Assembly (NCBI RefSeq): GCF_000156175.1
Contig: NZ_GG692711.1
Location: forward strand, 302,475 to 338,910
From: Collinsella intestinalis DSM 13280
GTDB taxonomy: Bacteria; Actinomycetota; Coriobacteriia; Coriobacteriales; Coriobacteriaceae
Direction of reading: 5' to 3'
Length of the DNA: 36,436 bases
In this document: piece by piece, positions 5,235 to 33,802 of the stretch
Position numbering within the stretch: the stretch's first letter is position 1
Layout of the letters: the number at the start of each line of letters is the position of its first letter
Notes under the pieces: model-generated
Told to the model about the DNA's origin: nothing
Databases searched by the model: none
The model's input: only the letters and a program-made list of their open reading frames with translations
Position numbers and translations under genes: made by a program

Positions 5235-6938
5235 ATGAGTTCTCTGAACCAGCGCGCGCCGTGGCGCGGGCAGATCAGTGCCGCCGGTATTCTCATCGGC
5301 TGCATCGGCTGCGTCATCATCACGGCATCTTCCGTCTACACGGCCCTCAAGATGGGCGCCCTGCCCTGGCCGACCATCTTCACCTCGATTACCGCGCTGG
5401 TCCTGCTGCGCGCGGCGGGCCGCACAAGCCTGAACGAGGCGAACGTCACCCAGATCATCATGTCAGCCGGTTCCATGGTCGCGGGCGGATTGGCTTTCAC
5501 CATCCCCGGCGTATGGATGCTCGGCCTCGATGCGGAGCTGAGCTGGATCGAGATCGGCGGCGTCGCGCTGGCCGGCACGCTGCTCGGCCTGGTGTGCACG
5601 GCGCTGATCCGCCGCCGTTTTGTCGAGGAGCCCGACCTCGAGTACCCCATCGGCACCGCCGCCGCCGAAACGCTCATGGCCAGCCGCGCGGGCGGCGCAA
5701 CGGGCAAGAGGCTCTTCGGGTCCATGGCGGTGGCCGGCATCTGGTGCGCGCTGCGCGACCTCGCGGGCGTCATCCCCGCCATGATCGGCGCACTGCCCAT
5801 CCCCGGCGTGGCCTTCGGCATCTACAACTCGCCCATGCTGCTATCGGTCGGCTTTTTGGTGGGCGGCGCCGCCGTGGCATTTTGGCTGGCAGGCGGGCTC
5901 ATCGCGAACTTCGGGATCATCGTGGGCGGCAGCGCGGCGGGACTCTGGGACGTGGCGAACGCGCAGGGAATCGTGTCGAGCCTGGGCATGGGCCTCATGA
6001 TGGGCTCTGGCATCGGTGTCGTGGTGCGAGACATCCTGCCCGCCGCCTTCCGTAGCGCGCACAATGGACGACACGACGACGACCACGCAAACGCCCCCGC
6101 ACGCGCATTCGGAAAACTCGACCGCAGCGTCCTCGCCCTGTTCGTGGCGGCGGCCGCCCTCCTCGTCTGCCTCGTGCTCGGCCTCTCCCCCATCGCCTGC
6201 GCCGTCGTGGTGGTGCTCGCATTCGTCACCACCATCATGAGCGCGCAGTCGGTGGGCCAAACCGGCATAGACCCCATGGAGATCTTCGGCCTCATCGTCC
6301 TGTTGGTCATCGCCGCCCTGGGAGAGTCCGATCAGGTCAGGCTCCTTTTCGTCGCAGGCGTGGTGGCCGTGGCATGCGGCCTCGCGGGCGACGTCATGAG
6401 TGACTTCAAAACCGGCAAAATCATCGGCACCGACCCGCGCGCCATGTGGATCGGCCAGGCGATCGGCGCCCTGATCGGCTGCGCCGTATCGGTGGCGGTG
6501 ATGTGCGCGCTCCTCAACGCCTACGGCGCCGACGCATTCGGCCCCGGAAAGCTCTTCGTGTCCGCCCAGGCAAGCGTGGTGGCAACCATGGTGTCGGGCA
6601 TCCCGAGCGTCCCCGCCTTCGTGCTCGGCCTTGTCGCGGGCGTGGCCCTGTACTGCCTGGGCATCCCGTCCATGATGCTTGGCCTCGGCGTGTACCTACC
6701 GTTTTACATGACGCTCTCGGCCTCTCTCGGCGCAGCCGTGAAGATCGCCTACGATCGCATAGCGTCCATCCGGAACGCGCGTGCGAGCGGCAACGTGGCG
6801 GCGAATGCCAATACGGACGCCGGTGAGACGTCGCACGAGGAGACCGGCATCATCGTTGCCTCCGGCGTGCTCGGCGGCGAGTCGATCGTGGGCGTGATCA
6901 TCGCGCTCGCATCCGTTGCGAGCGGCCTTTTGGGGTAA
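5235..6938 (+). CDS. OPT-family oligopeptide/metal-chelate transporter
   Basis: A polytopic membrane protein of 567 residues with about 14 hydrophobic segments. It resembles bacterial OPT/YSL transporters, which carry small peptides or metal-siderophore complexes by secondary transport. Supporting features are the N-terminal TALKMGALPWPTIFTSI segment, LNEANVTQIIMSAGSMVAGG, the cytoplasmic RRRFVEEPDLEYPIGTAAAE loop, and VMSDFKTGKIIGTDPR before the last helices. A His/Asp/Asn-rich loop (HNGRHDDDHANA) lies near residue 280. The start has GAAGGAG 6 nt upstream. It is monocistronic, divergent from coaX, with a hairpin about 95 nt past the stop. The substrate cannot be read from the sequence. Confidence 0.9.
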   Translation: MSSLNQRAPWRGQISAAGILIGCIGCVIITASSVYTALKMGALPWPTIFTSITALVLLRAAGRTSLNEANVTQIIMSAGSMVAGGLAFTIPGVWMLGLDAELSWIEIGGVALAGTLLGLVCTALIRRRFVEEPDLEYPIGTAAAETLMASRAGGATGKRLFGSMAVAGIWCALRDLAGVIPAMIGALPIPGVAFGIYNSPMLLSVGFLVGGAAVAFWLAGGLIANFGIIVGGSAAGLWDVANAQGIVSSLGMGLMMGSGIGVVVRDILPAAFRSAHNGRHDDDHANAPARAFGKLDRSVLALFVAAAALLVCLVLGLSPIACAVVVVLAFVTTIMSAQSVGQTGIDPMEIFGLIVLLVIAALGESDQVRLLFVAGVVAVACGLAGDVMSDFKTGKIIGTDPRAMWIGQAIGALIGCAVSVAVMCALLNAYGADAFGPGKLFVSAQASVVATMVSGIPSVPAFVLGLVAGVALYCLGIPSMMLGLGVYLPFYMTLSASLGAAVKIAYDRIASIRNARASGNVAANANTDAGETSHEETGIIVASGVLGGESIVGVIIALASVASGLLG

Positions 6939-10151: not shown

Positions 10152-10640
10152 ATGCATCGCATTCTCTTCATCTGCCACGGGAACATCTGCCGTTCCACCA
10201 TGGCCCAGTTCGTCTTTGAGGAACTCGTGCGGAGGGCCGGGCTCGAGGGCGAATTCACGATCGATTCCGCGGCGACGTCTCGCGAGGAGATCGGAAACCC
10301 TCCGCATCACGGGACCGTCTCCAAGCTCCGCGAAGCCGGCATCCCCGTCGGGGCGCATCGCGCTCGTCAGATCACGCGCGGCGAATACGGAAACTGGGAC
10401 CTCATCGCGTACATGGATCGCGAGAACGAACGGGGCCTCAATCGCATTCTCAACGGCGATCCCAACGGCACCTGCCACAAGCTCTTGGAATTTGCCGGAA
10501 GCAACCGCGACGTGGCCGATCCCTGGTATACCGGGGACTTCGACGCGGCCTATCGAGATATCGCAGAGGGCTGCTCGGGCCTGTTCGAGCACGTAACCGG
10601 AATCAACGCGCCTCTCTTGCCAGGCATCGAAGCGCACTAG
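10152..10640 (+). CDS. Low molecular weight protein-tyrosine phosphatase
   Basis: The enzyme hydrolyses phosphotyrosine through a cysteinyl-phosphate intermediate. The P-loop C(X)5R signature CHGNICRS is at residues 8-15 (nucleophile Cys8, Arg14), and the general-acid loop DPWYTGDF starts at Asp123. Length, 162 residues, is normal for the family. There is no signal peptide, so it acts in the cytoplasm. The start has AAAGG about 11 nt upstream. It is followed after 8 nt by the DUF554 gene, whose Shine-Dalgarno overlaps this stop codon, so the two are co-transcribed. No tyrosine kinase or capsule gene is adjacent, so its partner is unknown. Confidence 0.93.
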   Translation: MHRILFICHGNICRSTMAQFVFEELVRRAGLEGEFTIDSAATSREEIGNPPHHGTVSKLREAGIPVGAHRARQITRGEYGNWDLIAYMDRENERGLNRILNGDPNGTCHKLLEFAGSNRDVADPWYTGDFDAAYRDIAEGCSGLFEHVTGINAPLLPGIEAH

Positions 10641-10648
10641 GAGCCCCC

Positions 10649-11365
10649 ATGATCGGACTCGGAACGCTCATCGACGTCACGCTCATCCTCCTGGGCGGCT
10701 TCGCCGGCCTCGCCTTCGGACGGTTCATCAACGAACGCATACAAGACACCCTTCTCAAGGCAACCGCGGTGGCCATCATCTTCATCGGCATCTCCGGCGC
10801 CATGAGCGGCATGCTCACCGTATCCGGCGGCGAGATCTCGGCCGGCGGCTCCGTGCTCGTCGTCGTCTCGCTCGCGTTGGGGTCGCTCATCGGCGAAATG
10901 CTCGACCTCGAACGCCAGATCGACCGCTTTGGCGAGTGGCTCAAGTATGCGACCGGCAGCAGCGGCGACTCCGAGTTCGTGGACGCCTTCGTCACCGCGT
11001 CGCTTTCCGTCGCAATCGGCGCCATGTCCATCGTCGGCGCCATCCAGGACGGCACGATGGGCGACTGGACGACGCTCGCCATCAAGGGCGCCATCGACGC
11101 CCTGCTCGTGTGCACCATGACGGCGTCGATGGGCAAGGGCTGTATCTTCGCCGCGATTCCCGTGTTGGCGCTCCAGGGCGCCCTCACCTTGCTCGCAAGC
11201 TCCCTGCAGCCGCTCATGACCGCCGCGGCACTCGCCAACCTCTCGACGGTCGGCTCGATCCTCATCTTCTGCATCGGCATCAACCTGATCTGGCCCAAGA
11301 CCTTCCGCGTGGCCAACATGCTCCCCGCGGTTGTCGTTGCCATGGCGGCGGCATTTGTGATGTAG
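10649..11365 (+). CDS. DUF554 family membrane protein (YdfK-like)
   Basis: A 238-residue polytopic membrane protein with about seven hydrophobic segments. It matches DUF554: an N-terminal GTLIDVTLILLGGFAGLAFG helix, the GISGAMSG segment, LGSLIGEMLDLE-x-QIDRFGEWL, the SIVGAIQDG motif, and a C-terminal NLIWPKTFRVANMLPA before the last helix. Function is not established for the family; transport is often suggested. The start has AGGAG 5 nt upstream, overlapping the TAG stop of the phosphatase gene, so translation is probably coupled. No clear terminator follows before the repeat-rich gap. Confidence 0.9.
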   Translation: MIGLGTLIDVTLILLGGFAGLAFGRFINERIQDTLLKATAVAIIFIGISGAMSGMLTVSGGEISAGGSVLVVVSLALGSLIGEMLDLERQIDRFGEWLKYATGSSGDSEFVDAFVTASLSVAIGAMSIVGAIQDGTMGDWTTLAIKGAIDALLVCTMTASMGKGCIFAAIPVLALQGALTLLASSLQPLMTAAALANLSTVGSILIFCIGINLIWPKTFRVANMLPAVVVAMAAAFVM

Positions 11366-11427
11366 ACGACGGAGGATCGTCGCGAACACAAGGTAGGACC
11401 TTCGAGCACGGGTCCTCACGCGCCGTA

Positions 11428-11483
11428 GGCTGGCCCCGTGGCTGGCCCCGTGGCTGGTCCCGTGGCTGGTCCCGTGGCTGGTC
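11428..11483. repeat. 12-bp tandem repeat, about 4.7 units
   Basis: The unit ggctggYcccgt occurs head to tail: two copies with C, two with T, then a partial ggctggtc. The partial unit runs directly into the first hairpin of the dispersed family. No gene is supported in 11366-11750. Confidence 0.9.
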
Positions 11484-11523
11484 GCAAAATGCCACTCTGT
11501 ACAAACGTGGCATTTTGCGACCA
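11479..11523. repeat. Dispersed hairpin repeat, copy 1
   Basis: A 17-bp perfect inverted repeat (tggtcgcaaaatgccac / gtggcattttgcgacca) with an 11-nt loop. It belongs to the five-copy family recognised by TGGTCG at the base of the stem and GCCA near the top. Confidence 0.85.
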
Positions 11524-11548
11524 TTTTTCGCTTGAATAATCTAAAGAA

Positions 11549-11595
11549 ATGGGCGTGATTCGCCACGCTGGAACAAAGTAGCAAATCACGACCAT
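11549..11595. repeat. Dispersed hairpin repeat, copy 2
   Basis: An imperfect inverted repeat (atgggcgtgattcgc / gcaaatcacgaccat, two mismatches). Its loop, containing cgctggaacaaagta, closely matches that of copy 3, so the whole unit and not only the stem is conserved. Confidence 0.75.
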
Positions 11596-11619
11596 TTCCA
11601 GCCCGATATCTCAAAAAAA

Positions 11620-11664
11620 TGGTCGCGATTTGCCACGCTAGAACAGAGCAGCAAATCGCGACCA
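11620..11664. repeat. Dispersed hairpin repeat, copy 3
   Basis: A 14-bp perfect inverted repeat (tggtcgcgatttgc / gcaaatcgcgacca) with loop sequence cacgctagaacagagca. It lies about 90 nt beyond the prfC stop and may also help end that transcript, although no T-run follows on the minus strand. Confidence 0.85.
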
Positions 11665-11750
11665 CTTCATGGGAGCGGAGCGCCTGAGAAGCGGGCCCGG
11701 GCATCGCGACGTGCGCGTCTCATGGCCAATGCCCGGGCCCCGCCTGCATC

Positions 11751-31208: not shown

Positions 31209-31649
31209 TTAGGCGTCGCGGGACTGCCTTGAGGGCGAACCCGCAGAGCCCTTGTCGTCGATTGAAATCAAGTCGGGGCCGGCCTCTCCGGTCTTGCGAC
31301 GGCGACGATACGCCTCGCCGGTACCCTTCTCGGCGACCTTTCGATGGCGCTTGTTGACGTCCATGAAGTTATCGAGCCACTTCCAGGGGCCCGAAGATTC
31401 GCCGAAGCCCATCTTGAGGCCGGCGATGTACCCGGCCAAGACGCCCATCAAGATGATTTGGATCATCATGGCGGGAGTGAGCGCAACTGCCAGCACGACC
31501 GCGACGAGGCCTCCGATATTGGCGGCCCAGTAGGCGCGCGCGGTGACGAGGTAGCGACGGCCCAGTTCCTGACCGATCAGAAAACCGATGTAGACGGCAA
31601 AGCCGAACACCATGACATAGGTGATGATGTAGACCCAGTTAGCCGGCAT
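31209..31649 (-). CDS. Small membrane protein of unknown function
   Basis: A 146-residue protein with three hydrophobic segments (YIITYVMVFGFAVYIGFLIG, then ANIGGLVAVVLAVALTPAMM and a closely following IILMGVLAGYIAGLKMG). A basic, polar cytoplasmic tail follows (VNKRHRKVAEKGTGEAYRRR and a Ser/Gly/Asp-rich end). The start has GAGGGG upstream. It begins 6 nt after the stop of the dehydrogenase with the His/Cys tail and is surely co-transcribed with it. Whether the two proteins work together is unknown; I recognise no family. Confidence 0.8.
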   Translation of the reverse strand: MPANWVYIITYVMVFGFAVYIGFLIGQELGRRYLVTARAYWAANIGGLVAVVLAVALTPAMMIQIILMGVLAGYIAGLKMGFGESSGPWKWLDNFMDVNKRHRKVAEKGTGEAYRRRRKTGEAGPDLISIDDKGSAGSPSRQSRDA

Positions 31650-31655
31650 GCCCGC

Positions 31656-32756
31656 TTACCCCTCGTGATGGTGACCGCAATGACACTCGTGGCCCTCGCC
31701 GTGACCGTGGCCACCGCAGCACTCGTGGTCTTCGCCGTGGCCGTGGCCGCCGCAGCAGCACTCGTGGTCCTCGCCGTGGCCGTGGCCATGGTCGTGACCG
31801 CAGCCGCAATCGCACTCATCGTCGTGCTCGTGCTGGGCCGCGTAAAGCGACCAATCCAGACCCGCGGCGACGGCTTCGGCCTCCTCCTGGTACAGCAGGC
31901 TGATGGCCTGGGTGCCCATGCGGCCGCCGCCGATGGCGTCGAGCATGTCATACAGGGTGAACGCGGTATCGGCGCCGGGCAGGGCGATCTCCTTCTCCTC
32001 GGCGACCGTGAGCGCCAAGCCCAGGTCCTTGAGGAAGTGCTCGACCAGGAAGCCGGGCTTGTAGTCGCCGTCGATCGCCTTAGGGGCGAGCTGCTGCATG
32101 GCGCCGGAGTTGCCCGTACCGGAGCAGATCATCTCGCGCACCTGCTCGACGTCGAGATCGTTTTGCTGAGCAAAGGAGAGGGCGTCGGCCATGCCTACCA
32201 TGGCGCTCGCCAGGGCGACCTGGTTGGAGAGCTTCGCGGCCTGGCCCTTGCCGGCACCGCCGAAGCAGCAGATCTTGGAGGTGAAGGTCTCGAGCACCTC
32301 GCGGACGGGCTCGATATCGCGCTCGGTAGCGCCGATGATGGCCGTGAGGGTGCCGGCGATGGCACCGGACTCGCCGCCCGTCACGGGGCAGTCGAAGGCG
32401 TGCTTGCCGCACACCTCGGCGGCGCCGGCGATATCGCGGGCGAGCTCGGGCGCGCTGGTGGTGAGGTCGATGAGGTAGGCACCATCCTTGGCAGAGGCCA
32501 GCAGGCCCTCGCCCGCCAGGTAGACCTCCTCCACATCCGTGGGGAAGCCGACCATGCTAAAGACCACGTCGGCGTCCTTGGCGGCCTCGGCGACGGAATC
32601 GGCCCAGGCGGCGCCGCGCTCGATGAGGTCGGCGGCCTTTTCCTTGGTGCGGTTGTAGACGGTGAGCTCGTAGCCCGCGTCCATGATGTGGCCGGCAATG
32701 GGTGCGCCCATGATGCCGGTGCCGATGAAGGCGATCTTGAGGTTCTTGCTTGCCAT
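31656..32756 (-). CDS. 3-hydroxyisobutyrate-dehydrogenase-family oxidoreductase with His/Cys-rich tail
   Basis: Residues 1-305 form a normal NAD(P)-dependent beta-hydroxyacid dehydrogenase. The dinucleotide motif is FIGTGIMGAPIAGHI (10-24), the substrate loop is CPVTGGESGAIAGTL (123-137), catalytic Lys175 and Asn178 lie in GAGKGQAAKLSNQ, and a C-terminal helical half follows. Substrates of the family include 3-hydroxyisobutyrate and tartronate semialdehyde; this one is unassigned. Residues 309-366 are a tail of 17 His and 10 Cys in repeats of HGHGEDHECC type, unlike the family, which normally ends near 290-300. It looks like a metal-binding or storage tail. The start has GGAG 8 nt upstream. 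It leads an operon with the small membrane protein. Confidence 0.92.
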   Translation of the reverse strand: MASKNLKIAFIGTGIMGAPIAGHIMDAGYELTVYNRTKEKAADLIERGAAWADSVAEAAKDADVVFSMVGFPTDVEEVYLAGEGLLASAKDGAYLIDLTTSAPELARDIAGAAEVCGKHAFDCPVTGGESGAIAGTLTAIIGATERDIEPVREVLETFTSKICCFGGAGKGQAAKLSNQVALASAMVGMADALSFAQQNDLDVEQVREMICSGTGNSGAMQQLAPKAIDGDYKPGFLVEHFLKDLGLALTVAEEKEIALPGADTAFTLYDMLDAIGGGRMGTQAISLLYQEEAEAVAAGLDWSLYAAQHEHDDECDCGCGHDHGHGHGEDHECCCGGHGHGEDHECCGGHGHGEGHECHCGHHHEG

Positions 32757-32845
32757 ATGCAACGCTCCTTTTGACGTTTGTTCGACGAATGGGCGACGAT
32801 GGCGGATGCCACCGCCGGAGCCAGGCGGACCGACCCCGGTGCTCG

Positions 32846-33802
32846 CTATTCCCCGCGGACGCGGCTGGCGATGCGGTCGGTCAGGGAGATCTTCTCCGAG
32901 CGGTTCTTACCCCAGAAGATAAGGGCGACCATACCCGGTCCGACATGCGAGCCGATCGTAGGACCCACCGAACCGCGCAGGATGGTGAGGTCCGCACAGC
33001 CGGGCTCCTTACGAACGGCAGCCTCGAGCCAATCGGCATCCTTCTCGGCGTCGGAGGAGACGATGGCGAGCGGCAGAGTCGGGTCGAACTCGTAGTTCTC
33101 GGTGAATGACTTGATAAGCGACTTGAGCGCCTTCTTGCGGCCGCGGTTCACGCCGATGAGCGAAAGGGCCCCGGCCAGGTCGAAGGACAGCTCGGGCTTG
33201 ATATCGAGCTTGGAGGAGAGGGACGCCGCTGCGGGCGGGATGCGTCCGCCGGCGGAGAGCGCATCGAGGCTGTCCAGGGTGAAGTAACCGTGGATGTAGG
33301 TCTTTGCCTCATTGGCCCATTCGGCCAGCTGGCGCGCGCTCAGACCGGCCGCGCGCTGACGCACGGCCTCCATGGCGAGCAGCTCGCCGCACGCGCAGGG
33401 CAGTGCGTTGTCCACCACGTAGAGCTCGAAATCGGGATGATCGGCGCGCACTTGCTCGGCCGCATGGCAGGCGGAGTTGTAGCTTGAGGAGAGCGCGCTC
33501 GTGAAGCACAGATACACCGTGGGCGTGCCCTCTTCGGCGCATTTGGTGAAGAACTCGAGGTACTGACCGATCGAGATCGCCGAGGTCGAGGCCTTGGAGC
33601 CCTCACGCAGCTTGTCGTAGAACTCCGAAGGGGTGATGGTGCTCCAGATATCGTCGGTGTACTCGACGCCATCGAGGATGTAGGGAAATCCCAAGATGTC
33701 CACTTCGAGTGTGGCCGCGATCTCGGGGGTGAGATCGGCACAGGTGTCGATAACGATGCGGCACATGCGCGGGACCTCGTACGAGGCGGTGGTGTTGCCC
33801 AT
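32846..33802 (-). CDS. DegV family fatty-acid-binding protein
   Basis: DegV proteins bind fatty acids; in Firmicutes FakB members present them to the kinase FakA. The 318-residue protein shows CRIVIDTCADLTPEI at the N-terminus, the STSAISIGQY fatty-acid-headgroup segment, CFTSALSSSYNSA, a hinge FTLDSLDALSAGGRI, and the C-terminal GPTIGSHVGPGMVALIFWG typical of the family. It has a few extra residues before the first strand. The start has GGAG 5 nt upstream. There is no fakA nearby. It lies between the HPF gene terminator and the dehydrogenase operon and is probably monocistronic. Confidence 0.93.
   Translation of the reverse strand: MGNTTASYEVPRMCRIVIDTCADLTPEIAATLEVDILGFPYILDGVEYTDDIWSTITPSEFYDKLREGSKASTSAISIGQYLEFFTKCAEEGTPTVYLCFTSALSSSYNSACHAAEQVRADHPDFELYVVDNALPCACGELLAMEAVRQRAAGLSARQLAEWANEAKTYIHGYFTLDSLDALSAGGRIPPAAASLSSKLDIKPELSFDLAGALSLIGVNRGRKKALKSLIKSFTENYEFDPTLPLAIVSSDAEKDADWLEAAVRKEPGCADLTILRGSVGPTIGSHVGPGMVALIFWGKNRSEKISLTDRIASRVRGE

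Follow-up and report, generated by a model that had tools for sequence, protein, structure and literature searches.

A dehydrogenase gene with a His/Cys-rich 3' end

We identified a beta-hydroxyacid dehydrogenase gene whose product ends in a tail rich in His and Cys in a stretch of 36,436 nucleotides (the window) from Collinsella intestinalis DSM 13280, the genome of which is 1.8 Mb in size and 99.96% complete (Table 1). The list of open reading frames opens this frame at a TTG located two codons before the ATG at 32756. Because an AAAGGAG sequence ends 8 bases before the ATG, the ATG is taken as the start, and the predicted protein is most likely 366 residues long.

Table 1. Features of the window referred to in the text (window positions)
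Feature	Coordinates	Strand	Basis or remark
DegV-family protein (PF02645, TIGR00762)	32846..33802	(-)	89 nt upstream of the dehydrogenase
Beta-hydroxyacid dehydrogenase with C-terminal His/Cys tail, most likely 366 aa	31656..32756	(-)	Pfam, ribosome-binding site, orthologues
His/Cys tail, 58 residues plus stop codon, predicted to be disordered	31656..31832	(-)	Composition, model, codon comparison; codons 31659-31832, stop 31656-31658
Imperfect tandem repeat of 39 bp, 2.8 copies	31684..31788	(-)	Tandem Repeats Finder
Hydrophobic, presumably membrane protein, 146 aa, no family	31209..31649	(-)	6 nt downstream of the dehydrogenase; membrane nature read from the sequence
Protein of 231 aa	30331..31026		No Pfam or NCBIfam match
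Open frame of 476 aa opposite the dehydrogenase	31344..32774	(+)	Most likely caused by codon usage at high G+C
Frame of 355 aa, no family	10637..11704	(-)	May be spurious
OPT-family transporter	5235..6938		25 kb from the dehydrogenase

The sequence-only reading of this DNA had described the enzyme core as an ordinary NAD(P)-dependent one, which agrees with the Pfam domains NAD_binding_2 (residues 7-164; 155 bits, cut-off 21) and NAD_binding_11 (residues 169-285; 90.3 bits, cut-off 30). The residues G12, G14, M16, G17, D122, P124, V125, G127, G128, K175, N178, K243, and D244 are invariant in 23 aligned dehydrogenases. GxGxMG, DxPVxGG, a catalytic Lys with Asn three residues on, and KDLxLA are what we take to be the signature motifs of beta-hydroxyacid dehydrogenases. 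With these motifs present and both domains over cut-off, the protein falls into the 6PGDH-like, 3HIBADH/TSAR group, and judged by its sequence the core is that of a normal beta-hydroxyacid dehydrogenase. The PDB sequences that matched best were 3w6u (with 3ws7 and 5xvh; E 3e-60 for 3w6u), 3w6z, and the tartronate semialdehyde reductase 1vpd (E 2e-43). The whole core is similar to that of the tartronate semialdehyde reductase/3-hydroxyisobutyrate dehydrogenase family (1vpd, 3w6u). The PDB relatives differ at the C-terminus, since none of the best 60 of the 92 matches extends beyond residue 311 of 366. All matching NCBIfam equivalogs scored below their cut-offs (203 vs 340.75 bits for TIGR01505, 184 vs 291.6 for TIGR01692, 148 vs 350, and 128 vs 348) and no substrate was therefore assigned; the activities concerned are tartronate semialdehyde reductase, 3-hydroxyisobutyrate/L-threonate dehydrogenase, and 3-sulfolactaldehyde reductase.

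Composition and predicted disorder of the tail

The tail comprises residues 309-366 and contains 17 His and 10 Cys, as had been counted from the sequence before, whereas only 4 His and 5 Cys occur in residues 1-308 as numbered from the TTG. In the 22 other window frames chosen as likely genes, His and Cys account for 293 of 9214 residues (3.2%). The highest number in any 58-residue stretch of these frames is 12, found in the 355-residue frame of Table 1, and the next highest is 7. The binomial chance of at least 27 His and Cys in 58 residues is approximately 4e-25. The 355-residue frame itself has a SHGTSHGTSHGASHGAS repeat. The three near-repeats reported earlier for the tail were recovered by Tandem Repeats Finder as the 39-bp repeat (85% matches, 5% indels), which encodes units of the type (G)EDHECC(C)GGHGHG.

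An AlphaFold2 model of the dehydrogenase, based on 23 sequences, has a mean pLDDT of 69.7, with block means of 84-96 for residues 1-170, 38-80 for residues 171-310, and 31-40 after residue 310. No helix or strand is found past residue 309 in this model, and the tail is accordingly predicted to be disordered. A phmmer search of the tail against PDB sequences returned no match at E<=10, a search in which low-complexity bias may hide one. The resemblance to metallochaperone-type tails which had been pointed out earlier is thus found in composition; because of this search result, the likeness to SlyD is treated as compositional and does not imply homology.

The tail is widespread in Coriobacteriaceae and a second family

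A match to the dehydrogenase was present in 43/43 Collinsella genomes and 65/65 Coriobacteriaceae genomes. The locus was compared in 149 genomes: 65 from the Coriobacteriaceae (f1), 79 from family f5, which includes Olsenella and is hence presumably the Atopobiaceae, and 5 from f3, f8, f9, and f10. These loci come from the matches listed across the order, down to E 3e-73. One partial gene (G290) and four weak matches (G120, G126, G188, G260) were left out of the 79; the G120 and G188 enzymes are tail-less. In 149/149 genomes, with six family codes, the DegV gene lies directly upstream of the dehydrogenase gene. The 149 dehydrogenases are therefore very likely orthologous. DegV and the dehydrogenase form a very conserved pair, and a link to fatty acids is possible.

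We defined a His+Cys tail as one with at least 5 His and at least 4 Cys. Such tails are present in 118/149 genomes, namely 63/65 in f1 (the others being one Cys-only, G056, and one without tail, the genus-mate G028) and 55/79 in f5, where 7 further tails are His-only, 2 are Cys-only, and 15 enzymes have none. Hence some lineages keep the enzyme without the tail, which answers the earlier suggestion to search for orthologues of both kinds. In the small families, f8 has a His-only tail, f10 has one His-only tail and one enzyme without tail, and f3 and f9 have none. At least 4 Cys are found in the C-terminus of 121/149 genomes, and 19/149 have no His or Cys cluster there. Taken from just past the DW of the core, the His+Cys tails of the 118 genomes range in length from 31 to 103 residues and contain 4-14 Cys. 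Their composition is H 25%, G 21%, C 14%, E 14%, and D 13%. Typical units are HECxCGHxH, HECCGGHGH, and HECCHGEGH; C-x-C-G-H-x-H occurs in 97/118 tails and HEC likewise in 97/118. All 22 dehydrogenases from named records are tailed, several of these records being the same genomes as in the set.

Outside the order, 197 genomes of the class were searched, and 17 of the best matches (42-48% identical) have no His/Cys tail; they were taken by similarity and are putative orthologues. Within the class, these 17 relatives support the earlier statement that such tails are not known on this enzyme family. Among the genomes compared here, the tail is seen only in Coriobacteriales, on what appears to be a new carrier enzyme and with a putative metal chemistry.

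On a quick tree of the enzyme core, in which many branches have modest support, the His+Cys label requires 12 changes compared to a mean of 28.6 in shuffles, and 8 of the changes are forced by well-supported branches. Because the tree has an unresolved fork whose three branches (f1, most of f5, and four f5 genomes) all include tailed enzymes, the simplest reading of the tree is a single origin before the family split followed by several later losses.

Some C-termini deviate in kind. The dehydrogenases of G294 (L103) and G274 (L104) end in eight consecutive His, a natural His8 tag, and that of G270 (L082) ends in a HDHEHDHEHDHEHDHH-type tail. The tail of G208 (L083) has 9 Cys, 2 His, and many Ser, Thr, and Asp (SCDCSTDT-type); it looks as though its His had been replaced and its Cys retained.

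His and Cys codons of the tail are under purifying selection

Codon differences were counted in 18 close pairs which we chose across f1 and f5. For His/Cys codons of the tail, 79 synonymous and 21 nonsynonymous differences were found (nonsyn/syn 0.27); for the other tail residues these numbers were 98 and 75 (0.77) and for the core 886 and 192. Within a clade of 14 close genus-mates, approximately 72-73% identical to the window's enzyme, 13 of the 23 His/Cys tail columns vary synonymously and 1 nonsynonymously. The predominance of synonymous changes, though only one of nine codon neighbours is synonymous, points to strong constraint on His and Cys. These codon comparisons indicate that the tail is translated and selected and that purifying selection holds its His and Cys. 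The 476-residue frame on the opposite strand raised the possibility that the tail is an antisense artefact. Since it is in the frame of the dehydrogenase that most codon changes are silent, this was rejected and the tail is regarded as the coding one of the two.

Tail length differs in 14/18 of the close pairs, and the changes are in frame. With His and Cys conserved and length drifting, it is their number and clustering that are kept rather than a fixed geometry, as would be expected of a reservoir with multiple sites. Random variation in length with frameshifts, named earlier as a sign against a function, was not what we observed: length varies in frame while His and Cys are under purifying selection.

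The same data bear on the view that the tail has no metal role, being an acidic, Gly-rich, disordered solubility or linker tail or a selfish expanding repeat in which His and Cys are incidental. The repeat structure, the in-frame length drift, and the lack of a His/Cys cluster in 19/149 genomes fit this view; the constraint is nevertheless stronger on His and Cys than on the other tail residues, and a neutrally expanding repeat would hardly be expected to retain 4-14 Cys throughout two families. We consider it very improbable.

We also considered whether the tail is a genome-wide repeat or a cassette shared by several proteins. Apart from one weak match (E 0.1, a 57-residue open frame), the tail matched nothing else in its own genome, and a degenerate DNA pattern of the tail occurred there in two places, both inside the tail. 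A search of 297 genomes of the order gave 50 matches at E<=0.01, and by coordinates every one of them sits at the dehydrogenase; this search matched only 49 genomes and missed most known tails. With the matches confined to the dehydrogenase this possibility was rejected, the low sensitivity of the search leaving room for other carriers.

Genes surrounding the tailed dehydrogenase

As noted before, the dehydrogenase gene is followed after 6 nt (at 31649) by a gene of no recognised family: neither Pfam nor NCBIfam matched its 146-residue product at E<=0.001. This gene adjoins the dehydrogenase gene in 61/65 f1 and 36/79 f5 genomes, and it is present in 90/118 genomes with a His+Cys tail and in 3/15 tail-less f5 genomes. 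A special link of this protein to the tail was not supported and an obligatory partnership was rejected, as the gene was not detected in 28/118 tailed genomes; the distribution suggests that it may be linked to the tail, yet is not needed. In G114 (L071, 3400-3960) the tail runs into the membrane protein without a stop, and a GTG preceded by GAGGGGGAG comes after the tail; this fusion, seen in one genome only, may reflect a lost stop codon. Further downstream, the 231-residue protein is found in nearly all f1 and f5 loci among the lines listed.

Pfam searches with the 24 window ORFs left seven without match and revealed no metal regulator or metalloenzyme maturation gene. No efflux gene was recognised in the window and no clear metal gene adjoins the dehydrogenase. 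The OPT family includes metal-chelate carriers; no link between the OPT-family transporter and the tail is apparent.

These observations are relevant to detoxification, in which the tail would take up surplus Cu(I), Zn, or Cd as a metallothionein-like sink and would not be a store. Bacterial metallothioneins have clustered Cys and His and no hydrophobic core, and are small, free-standing proteins with conserved Cys spacing. The tail resembles them in its clustered Cys and His. It differs in being an extension of a 366-residue enzyme, in having more His than Cys, and in that neither its length nor the spacing and number of its Cys are fixed. The Cys-x-Cys and Cys-Cys clusters accompanied by His, with at least 4 Cys in most of the genomes, would suit a sink, as would the reduced cytosol of gut anaerobes, in which thiolates are free. 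Because no efflux gene or metal-responsive regulator was recognised in the window, and because the His-only tails (7/79 in f5) suit Ni or Zn more than Cu(I), detoxification is regarded as distinctly unlikely.

Co-occurrence with HypB and SlyD/FKBP

A dedicated metallochaperone for one client, for instance in nickel insertion into [NiFe]-hydrogenase as for SlyD-HypB, is suggested by the SlyD-like composition. The HypB model (TIGR00073) matched in 257/297 genomes of the order, 239 of them over cut-off. It also matched 12/14 control genomes (4 over cut-off), so that weak matches mean little. HypB was therefore scored as present at E<1e-40; 15 f5 genomes above this value were set aside as weak, and 20 genomes without match were identified by their absence among the listed matches. 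Among the tailed f1 genomes, HypB is present in 58/63, in line with a chaperone, and absent in 5/63. The tailed f5 genomes comprise 21 with HypB, 28 without, and 6 weak, and the tail-less f1 and f5 genomes 11 with HypB and 5 weak. The tail thus does not follow HypB as an accessory protein of [NiFe]-hydrogenase would: 33/118 tailed genomes have no HypB match and 6 a weak one. One of the 33 is G026, a 97% complete genome whose enzyme is 94% identical to that of the window. Because of these 33 genomes and the 11 tail-less ones with HypB, the tail does not depend on [NiFe]-hydrogenase maturation. A general role as a nickel or [NiFe]-hydrogenase chaperone was rejected on the same 33 genomes, and we consider a dedicated metallochaperone, also one for another client such as urease or a zinc enzyme, quite unlikely.

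SlyD is a usual bearer of His/Cys tails. We surveyed SlyD/FKBP proteins in 93 genomes, using the best match per genome and some second ones; the genus was covered by 30 of 42 genomes plus G028, with G056 besides, and G214 and G218 gave no FKBP match. In 30/30 loci of the genus the SlyD-like FKBP ends right after its domain. An FKBP with a His/Cys tail was found in 0/64 genomes with a His+Cys-tailed dehydrogenase, 0/8 with a His-only and 0/3 with a Cys-only tail, and 4/18 tail-less genomes. Three of the four, G268 (L257), G286 (L263), and G296 (L266), belong to genus g105 and have 7-10 His and 7-10 Cys beyond the FKBP domain; the fourth, G079 (L332; 85% complete), belongs to family f9 and has 7 His and 5 Cys. 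None of the four has a tail on the dehydrogenase. Conversely, G274 and G294 of g105, with eight plain His on the dehydrogenase, have no FKBP tail. The other 14 of the 18 tail-less genomes lack a SlyD tail as well. Fisher's test gave p 0.002 (4/18 tail-less vs 0/64) and p 0.008 (4/29 without His+Cys tail vs 0/64), both with descent ignored. This pattern is suggestive of a reciprocal placement of the tail on either the dehydrogenase or SlyD/FKBP, which by descent amounts to two lineages. Tree-aware tests of association of the tail with the SlyD tail, HypB, and the membrane gene could draw on 2, 5, and 8 independent pairs, respectively, from supported branches, and none was significant. Short Cys-bearing FKBP ends were also seen: 1 His and 4 Cys in the second FKBP of G066, 1 His and 3 Cys in that of G213 (neither genome being among the 93), and 3 Cys in G073, which was counted as tail-less on FKBP.

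A putative metal store on a metabolic enzyme

As in SlyD (excerpt of PMC7055735), a folded enzyme domain is followed in the dehydrogenase by a disordered C-terminal extension that is enriched in His, Cys, Asp, and Glu and varies among relatives. According to the same excerpt, E. coli SlyD binds up to 7 Ni(II) and its tail is thought to store nickel, and H. pylori SlyD binds 2.4 Ni or 3.3 Zn. The carrier is different: it is a Rossmann-fold beta-hydroxyacid dehydrogenase with no FKBP_C among the seven Pfam families that match it, and SlyD is itself tail-less in 64/64 of the tailed genomes checked. Other metal-binding, His-rich stretches are found in mycobacterial GroEL1, where the tail is likewise an appendix on a housekeeping protein, here a chaperonin, and in H. 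pylori Hpn and Hpn-like, Hpn being a free-standing protein (PMC10170517, PMC5312948, PMC4671568, PMC3076238); neither GroEL1 nor Hpn involves a dehydrogenase.

We propose, at even odds, that the tail is a SlyD-like appendage which stores or buffers metal, with the dehydrogenase mainly as its carrier. A disordered tail with multiple sites on a housekeeping NAD(P) enzyme would act as a cytosolic store or buffer for soft or borderline divalent metals, most likely Zn(II) and Ni(II) and possibly Cu(I) or Co(II). The His-x-His, Cys-x-Cys, and Cys-Cys clusters of the repeats would let one chain take up several ions, at micromolar or better affinity, and release them to apo-enzymes or exporters. Metal binding and the identity of the metals, the abundance of the carrier, and the benefit of storage or buffering are what we infer. 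Storage is supported by the constraint on His and Cys, the free length, the wide presence in f1 and f5, the predicted disorder, a composition like that of known metal-binding tails, and the occurrence of the same kind of tail on a second carrier, SlyD/FKBP. The lack of a clear metal gene next door and the restriction of the SlyD swap to two lineages count against it. Since 15/79 f5 genomes and G028 are tail-less, and since SlyD too is without a tail in most of the tail-less genomes checked, the function would be dispensable or carried out elsewhere.

In another reading, metal on the tail alters activity, oligomeric state, or stability of the dehydrogenase, so that carbon or redox flow answers the metal level. 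The tail sits on the same enzyme in 118/149 genomes, so the pairing itself is kept, and a precedent is given in the excerpt of PMC7055735, which reports reversible inhibition of the SlyD isomerase by bound Ni. However, tail length drifts freely, and poly-His, acidic, or no tail replaces the His+Cys tail while the enzyme stays. Metal-dependent control is possible but less favoured, and in our view unlikely, because the enzyme persists without tail in f5 and because the same kind of tail is found on SlyD/FKBP in two lineages.

The proposal of a metal store can be taken further. In Coriobacteriales the metal-reservoir tail might be a portable module which left or never joined SlyD and became fixed on the dehydrogenase, and which in lineages such as genus g105 and family f9 would be placed on SlyD/FKBP; the copy number of the enzyme would then set the buffering capacity, and the carrier would be nearly arbitrary. 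This extension is doubtful. If metal does bind to the tail, the metal store of Collinsella and its relatives, bacteria common in the human gut, is located on a metabolic enzyme and not on SlyD. The purpose of such tails (storage, delivery, or control) would then become directly testable, because nature supplies His+Cys, His-only, Cys-only, and tail-less enzymes as well as genomes with the tail on another protein.

In the open-licence literature, which omits most subscription papers, no title or abstract reporting this dehydrogenase tail was found. The excerpt of PMC12211046 describes a Legionella enoyl-CoA hydratase homologue, a metabolic enzyme with surface His clusters which binds nickel resin. 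Given a metal-binding tail, the dehydrogenase would be expected to co-purify on nickel resin as well.
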